33,101 bases of DNA from Thiobacillaceae bacterium. Its GTDB lineage: Bacteria > Pseudomonadota > Gammaproteobacteria > Burkholderiales > Thiobacillaceae. Position 1 is the first letter of the stretch, and every line of letters starts with the position of its first letter. Shown one piece after another: positions 28,704-29,678 of this stretch. The stretch is from positions 1 through 33,101 of the forward strand of contig JAAPAA010000299.1 in the NCBI GenBank assembly GCA_012274165.1, in the 5' to 3' direction. A program made the position numbers and the translations under genes. The notes under the pieces are model-generated. The model worked only from the letters and a program-made list of their open reading frames with translations. It did not search any database and was not told the origin of the DNA.

Positions 28704-28784
28704 ATGCCTTGTAGGACGCCCCATGGCCGTAAGACCATCTGGCGGTCGCTGCACAAATTCAGCGCGGGACGCCCTACAAGGCAT
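28704..28784. repeat. 81-nt imperfect inverted-repeat element with two internal hairpins
   Basis: ATGCCTTGTAGGACGCCCC / GGGACGCCCTACAAGGCAT, 17 of 19 positions paired. Confidence 0.75.
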
Positions 28785-28863: not shown

Positions 28864-29067
28864 TCACAGTCCAGGGCTAACGGCCTGCTTAGCACGTGTG
28901 CGCCGCATATCTTTTCTGATCGCGTCAGCCACGACTTTTGCAGTTGCTGATGCGGGCTTACCGCCAGCTTTGATGCGCATCAGAGTCCTCAGTGCCAGCT
29001 TGTGGCGCTGAGAGAACTCCGTGACGTTTATGCCACCCAGGTGGGCGCGTATGTCGATAGTATTCAT
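28864..29067 (-). CDS. Small Cro-like putative DNA-binding regulator
   Basis: MNTIDIRAHLGGINVTEFSQRHKLALRTLMRIKAGGKPASATAKVVADAIRKDM, divergent control-region position. Confidence 0.5.
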   Translation of the reverse strand: MNTIDIRAHLGGINVTEFSQRHKLALRTLMRIKAGGKPASATAKVVADAIRKDMRRTRAKQAVSPGL

Positions 29068-29081
29068 GAGTCGATGGTAGT

Positions 29082-29091
29082 GCAACGTTGC
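29082..29091. promoter_or_regulatory. Palindrome GCAACGTTGC, candidate operator
   Basis: Perfect 10-nt palindrome just upstream of regulator gene. Confidence 0.4.
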
Positions 29092-29136
29092 GCGCATGGC
29101 AACATCCACGTCGCCAGAATATTTTTCAAAAAGTTC

Positions 29137-29167
29137 TTGCAATGCTCCGTGCCATGTGGCACATTAA
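29137..29167 (+). promoter_or_regulatory. Candidate rightward promoter with embedded operator
   Basis: TTGCAA, about 17-19 nt, CACATTAA; GTGCCA-TG-TGGCAC dyad at 29149-29162 in spacer. Confidence 0.35.
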
Positions 29168-29249
29168 ACCCATCGCAGCAACAAACGCCCCAGGGCGGCT
29201 GCGGAGGGTGGGAGGCGATAGAGCCTGCGCCGACGGATCTTTAAAAACC

Positions 29250-29420
29250 GAGGGCTACAGAGAGATGCGGAATGCGCAGGCTGATGCGCGGGAACATAAG
29301 TTGGGCCATGCAGGTGGTGCACCCTCGTTCTGCATGATGCCGACCGACTGGTAAGCGGCCCTAAACGGCTAGTTGGTCATGCTGGAGTTCAGTACCAGCC
29401 CGCATCTCTCTGTAGCTCTC
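29250..29420 (+). ncRNA. Putative structured RNA closed by 21-bp stem
   Basis: GAGGGCTACAGAGAGATGCGG pairs with CCGCATCTCTCTGTAGCTCTC; four inner hairpins found by hand. Confidence 0.55.
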
Positions 29421-29572: not shown

Positions 29573-29678
29573 GGCCGCTGGAGTTCGGGGAGATGCCAGC
29601 CGTCCACCTTGTACGTCAACAGGGATCAAACCTCAGTCTTGCGCGCAGGGCTGAGGTTTGTTCACAAGGAGCACAGAC

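Follow-up and report, generated by a model that had tools for sequence, protein, structure and literature searches.

The C4 antisense RNA of P1/P7-type phages, which constitutes an Rfam family, is a short structured RNA of phage control regions, and HK022 put and EAR are structured processive antitermination RNAs in phage or operon leader positions. Phi80 M3 RNA is a small phage RNA and a substrate of RNase P, and T4 rnaC and rnaD (species 1 and 2) are small stable phage RNAs located beside tRNA genes in the T4 tRNA cluster. The element analysed in the present study, at positions 29250-29420 of a 33,101-nt stretch of Thiobacillaceae DNA (the window), represents a single copy of a phage RNA family that is very common but had not been catalogued before. 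This family resembles C4 RNA as a short structured RNA in phage control regions, but the members tested have no Rfam match and no antisense relation was found. With put and EAR it shares the presence of a structured RNA in leader positions, whereas its copies often carry an immediate terminator and occupy many non-leader positions; put was set apart by its description. Like the family, M3 RNA is a small phage RNA, and it was rejected as a member, being annotated as a lambda oop homologue in a phage that gives no match to the family model. The T4 RNAs are likewise small stable phage RNAs beside tRNA genes, but they lack the GGCUGA and UCAGC loops, do not match the family model and yielded no evidence of homology. 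T4 rnaC (L238:1409-1672) has a canonical tRNA T-arm-like hairpin close to its 3′ end, which may be compared with the upstream modules described below.

With tRNA (RF00005), the family has in common a 7-bp acceptor-like stem, a linker of 2-3 nt, a D-like hairpin, a variable part, a 5-bp T-like hairpin abutting the stem, a loop-loop contact (predicted for the present family) and the location of copies in phage tRNA clusters. It differs from tRNA in having neither an anticodon arm nor a T-loop or D-loop consensus, in the predicted 5-bp Watson-Crick kiss between its loops and in a payload that can exceed 170 nt. The sequence-only reading that drew attention to the element knew of no phage RNA class with this architecture, and the searches agree: none of 4227 Rfam models scored above its gathering threshold for the window element or the tested relatives, Rfam at E <= 10 returned chance matches only, all outside the element, and ARAGORN detected no tRNA in it. 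A tRNA gene was thus rejected. No description of the RNA was found in the literature searched, core sequences included (main texts, mostly outside subscription journals), and the inspected records carry no RNA-gene annotation of the element.

Fold of the window element

The features of the element and its 5′ flank, all on the plus strand, are as follows.

29236-29247, plus strand: boxA-like GATCTTTAAAAA, just 5′ of the closing stem; lineage-specific, tentative
29250-29270, plus strand: closing stem, 5′ strand; the inner 7 bp (29264-29270) are acceptor-like and family-wide, the outer 14 bp lineage-specific
29271-29273, plus strand: AAT linker from closing stem to hairpin 1; AAT in 141 of 169 family members
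29274-29289, plus strand: hairpin 1, D-arm-like, GCGCA-GGCTGA-TGCGC; the stem covaries in homologues and the loop is nearly fixed
29280-29284, plus strand: loop 1 half of the predicted kissing helix, GCTGA; partner TCAGT at 29389-29393
29290-29380, plus strand: hypervariable payload, 91 nt, with hairpins at 29307-29336 and 29342-29378
29381-29399, plus strand: hairpin 4, T-arm-like, GCTGG-AGTTCAGTA-CCAGC; abuts the closing stem with zero spacer
29389-29393, plus strand: loop 4 side of the predicted kissing helix; partner GCTGA at 29280-29284
29400-29420, plus strand: closing stem, 3′ strand; pairs with 29250-29270

RNAfold assigned -89 kcal/mol to the plus strand of 29250-29420, compared with -61.7 +/- 4.3 for dinucleotide shuffles (z = -6.4), and none of 200 shuffles was as stable; the minus strand was less stable than the plus strand (-77.8, z = -5.6). 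The minimum-energy structure comprises the closing stem, hairpin 1, two middle hairpins and a last hairpin directly abutting the 3′ strand. Among short-range inverted repeats of the window, the closing stem ranks first (21 nt; 95% strict complementarity and one G-U). All five helices proposed from the letters alone were thus recovered at their positions by RNAfold and the inverted-repeat search. In the window, the loops of hairpins 1 and 4 are complementary, GCUGA at 29280-29284 with UCAGU at 29389-29393.

Across the family, the closing stem is shared only in its inner 7 bp, the full 21 bp being a trait of the window lineage. In this lineage the module found upstream of other copies is absent, and the stem is preceded instead by GATCTTTAAAAA, which has the exact sequence of a boxA from the 16S-23S spacer of a genome of the same genus. 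The payload type of the window occurs in one further contig only (L036), and the two copies differ by compensated pair changes in both middle hairpins. Some close relatives (the L003, L005 and L009 types) have the same layout with other loops.

Elsewhere in the window, a 19-nt inverted repeat at 28704-28784, ATGCCTTGTAGGACGCCCC / GGGACGCCCTACAAGGCAT (89% complementary, 43 nt apart), lies between a DUF1376 replication gene and a small minus-strand ORF and may be another structured RNA. The minus-strand feature at 28864-29142, previously taken for a divergent regulator, has no match in Pfam or PHROGs. Just 5′ of the first plus-strand gene there is a strong hairpin at 29626-29663, AACCTCAG..CTGAGGTT, and for this gene ATG 29680, after an AGGAG-like site, looks a better start than TTG 29658.

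Distribution, scaffold and payloads of the family

The first relatives were detected in IMG/VR by searching with a 17-nt piece of the closing stem, and in other proviral contigs the flank and closing stem of the window are conserved around wholly different interiors. Hairpin 1 was also found by blastn in unrelated phages, and HK633, Pseudomonas phage DO4 and Acidovorax phage AP1 have the core in common but enclose it in a different closing stem. Exact hairpin 1 and exact hairpin 4 each occur in at least 120 IMG/VR contigs; where both motifs are present, 6 to about 180 nt separate them, exact hairpin 1 being accompanied by a strict-pattern hairpin 4 within 330 nt in 176 of 286 cases (redundant contigs counted). 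The 54-nt core has matches in 233 public phage records and in 1049 of 5426 complete E. coli genomes (about one fifth), and its carriers include P1, P7, D3, HK633 and lytic Klebsiella phages. Named species genomes with exact hairpin 1 belong mostly to Enterobacterales, Pseudomonas, Xanthomonadales and Burkholderiales; because about two chance matches are expected, by estimate, for the 19-mer search of this collection, lone matches in planctomycete MAGs are not trustworthy. Covariance model R1 matched 18 of 399 genomes drawn evenly from the host phylum at E <= 0.001, several of them weakly. Weak family-model matches in HK022 (L381:2583-2692, 20.9 bits) and P1 (L228:3261-3382, 23.8 bits) may be diverged relatives. 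The K-12 prophage CPS-53 lacks the element upstream of yfdP.

The consensus reads closing stem, AAU, (GCGCA GGCUGA UGCGC), payload, (GCCGG AGAUCAGCA CCGGC), closing stem. The core thus consists of a conserved 7-bp closing stem, AAU, a 5-bp hairpin with loop GGCUGA, an insert and a 5-bp hairpin with loop AGAUCAGCA, which abuts the closing stem. The conserved closing stem is as long as the acceptor stem of a tRNA and, together with hairpin 4, makes a 12-bp stack; as in tRNA, the 7-bp acceptor-like stem is continuous with the 5-bp T-like stem, and pairing is high through bp 7 and lower beyond.

Covariation, proposed earlier as a check on the structure, is present among the homologues: 93.8% of cells are paired, and 14 of 23 pairs show two-sided changes. 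Double-changed cells numbered 92, compared with 27.7 in column shuffles, none of 500 of which reached as high a value, and slid controls were far lower. Since this first alignment was drawn from scans that required pairing, the test was repeated with loci anchored on hairpins 1 and 4 only. All seven closing pairs are then present at 135 of the 160 loci, formed by 48 different 7-mers; bp 2-7 are Watson-Crick in 89-96% of loci compared with 35-69% when shuffled, and the paired fraction drops to 61% for bp 8, reaching background or values close to it by bp 10. Hairpin 1 covaries as well (GCGCA/UGCGC, GCGUA/UACGC, GCCCG/CGGGC, GCAAA/UUUGC and others). The reading of the locus as a structured RNA with tRNA-like topology is therefore borne out by both the significance of the fold and covariation. 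A protein-coding gene was rejected, each of the three sense frames being interrupted by a stop codon in 140 of 214 elements, compared with 108 among shuffles.

Complementarity of the loops GCUGA and UCAGC holds for practically all members, and the D-like and T-like loops are predicted from this to pair (GCUGA:UCAGC), giving an elbow. Because the loops are nearly invariant, this helix is argued from complementarity and not from covariation, and two-sided changes in it were never seen in the family alignment. A scan of 3.08 Mb for the topology with any loop-loop complementarity returned 274 hits, 244 with a CTGA loop and 30 scattered; as most of these loci had been fetched for carrying a motif, the scan is informative for its low noise rather than for the count. 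No hit was obtained in shuffled versions of 11 non-coding regions.

The tRNA topology, the stack of 7 + 5 bp, the copies in tRNA clusters and the T-arm-like hairpins of some payloads (12 of 149 payload clusters, compared with 1.6 when shuffled) might suggest a degenerate or mis-folded tRNA gene or the remnant of a tRNA array. However, ARAGORN and Rfam detected no tRNA, loops of 6 and 9 nt with the predicted 5-bp kiss replace the D- and T-loop motifs, and the core is tightly conserved instead of decaying, which makes such an origin scarcely plausible. A 3′ CCA is not a consistent feature: it stands next to the acceptor-like stem at the expected offset in about 8% of copies, and CC at positions 9-11 is only mildly enriched.

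The insert between hairpins 1 and 4 ranges from 6 nt, in a minimal element (L222), to more than 170 nt. Clustering sorts the 214 payloads into 149 unrelated clusters, and 112 of these are singletons; the larger ones are mostly found under several different closing stems, and unrelated interiors also occur inside one and the same closing stem and flank. Compensatory changes affect 18 of 46 predicted pairs (whole element) in payload cluster 1 and 16 of 39 in cluster 2. This maintenance of structure by compensatory change in the clusters indicates that payloads are folded RNAs exchanged as modules, and their stability is barely above that of shuffles (mean z = -0.5). Payload antisense matches to nearby phage sequence showed no excess, and a payload target was not found in that way.

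Constant ends around unrelated interiors, together with payload clusters common to different closing stems, would also fit a DNA-level mobile cassette that recombines through its conserved inverted-repeat ends and carries the interior as passenger DNA. We consider this highly improbable, since the closing stem varies and covaries across the family (48 different 7-mers), as do hairpin 1 and the payload stems, terminator placement fixes one strand, and copies are few. The host assembly has a single copy and element-positive E. coli genomes a median of one; many near-identical copies per genome, as expected of a MITE or dispersed repeat, were not seen in either, and the MITE alternative raised by the sequence-only reading was rejected. 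A further explanation treats the scaffold as a signal for processing or stability that lacks any function of its own and is used by payloads that are unrelated small RNAs. This explanation accords with a constant frame around mutually unrelated variable RNAs. It is nevertheless quite unlikely, given that the minimal elements with a 6-nt payload imply that the scaffold alone can be kept and that the near-invariant loop sequences suggest recognition beyond folding.

Transcription signals and genomic context

Intrinsic terminators occur within 150 nt downstream of 37 of 208 copies, compared with 2.0 in shuffles, and most start 0-33 nt after the 7-bp stem, with a cluster at 6-13 nt. This enrichment just downstream fixes the strand of the element, supporting the modelled strand and a role in trans. 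A sigma-70 promoter of its own was not enriched (15 compared with 15.6 when shuffled). A boxA as a general upstream signal was rejected, the enterobacterial GCTCTTT enrichment being the 3′ strand of an upstream helix; boxA is therefore retained, tentatively, for the window lineage only.

A second stem-enclosed hypervariable module lies directly upstream of 54 of 195 elements (helix score >= 9), compared with 4.3 in shuffles and 6 in control stretches. Such modules (e.g. L114, L164 and L356) have their own covarying closing helix, including AAGAGCATTG/CAGTGCTCTT and TGGCGATTG/CAGTCGCCA, and lie 0-6 nt before the element.

No neighbouring gene is constant across the inspected copies, which are located in phage tRNA clusters (D3, Madison, ST4, Kintu and 6947), P1-type arrays, Q-holin gaps (HK633 and YA3) and immunity regions, between repressor and yfdP in E. 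coli (L382), between portal and terminase genes, and beside recT, primase or rusA. The tRNAs near viral-contig copies are on the same strand in 30 of 30 cases, and a tRNA gene lies within 1 kb of only 12% of viral copies (17 of 142; control, 8 of 142). In P1, P7 and 813R1, tRNA genes flank the copies on both sides, and a C1 operator, annotated in P1 and P7, lies upstream of them. P1-like phages carry the elements in tandem arrays, with tRNA-Asn/Thr on one side and a later tRNA gene on the other. In these arrays (L387:2310-3250, L228:2690-3420 and L386:1090-1900), kissing-core elements alternate with stem-enclosed hypervariable modules, one of which has an intact T-arm, and order and content differ among P1, P7 and 813R1.

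The location of the window element between a regulator and an operon had suggested that it replaces a CI-type repressor in the immunity region. Relatives beside repressor genes do exist (E. coli L382; L207), but the many unrelated positions of the others do not sustain this proposal. The same location of the window and L382 copies, and the boxA-like site preceding the window-lineage element, could point to a cis-acting leader of the following operon, such as an antiterminator of the put/EAR kind, an attenuator or a riboswitch-like sensor. However, a neighbouring gene shares the strand in only about 64% of cases, whichever side is taken (30 of 46 and 29 of 46), and the functions of these genes differ, the immediate terminators after many copies argue against antitermination, and the apparent boxA of enterobacterial members belongs to the upstream helix; a cis-acting role thus appears rather unlikely.

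Proposed role of the RNA family

Considering these results, we propose, with moderate confidence, that the family is a phage-encoded non-coding RNA acting in trans, a processed tRNA-shaped scaffold that displays exchangeable payloads. A trans-acting RNA using host machinery is favoured because the element is independent of position, is confined to one strand, is followed by terminators and has no constant partner gene. The RNA would be transcribed within a longer phage transcript, and a discrete folded molecule would be the end product. Its conserved scaffold would comprise the 7-bp acceptor-like stem, the AAU linker, the D-arm-like hairpin and the T-arm-like hairpin abutting the stem, with the separately evolving hypervariable payload placed where a tRNA has its anticodon arm and variable loop. 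The tRNA layout suggests tRNA-like processing and stability, and the scaffold would most likely make the RNA stable, open it to processing by tRNA-type enzymes of the host and perhaps allow one host factor to recognise it. The hypervariability of the payload points to targets that change, and the exchangeable payloads would most likely contact different targets in trans; our favoured reading is that of a putative decoy or inhibitor acting against host defence or tRNA-acting proteins. More speculatively, phages of Beta- and Gammaproteobacteria might possess an evolvable RNA "display", in which the tRNA-shaped scaffold, often in tandem with the second hypervariable stem-enclosed RNA and sometimes in arrays, presents payloads as decoys or inhibitors against changing host defence proteins, for example tRNA-targeting ones.

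The element has no Rfam family, although about one in five complete E. coli genomes and hundreds of phages carry it. Its occurrence in well-studied laboratory phages (P1, HK633 and D3) makes expression and function directly testable. If the proposal is correct, a conserved RNA scaffold whose payloads are swapped rapidly would give phages a new means of varying their RNA effectors, and would be nature's parallel to the tRNA scaffolds that stabilise recombinant RNAs.
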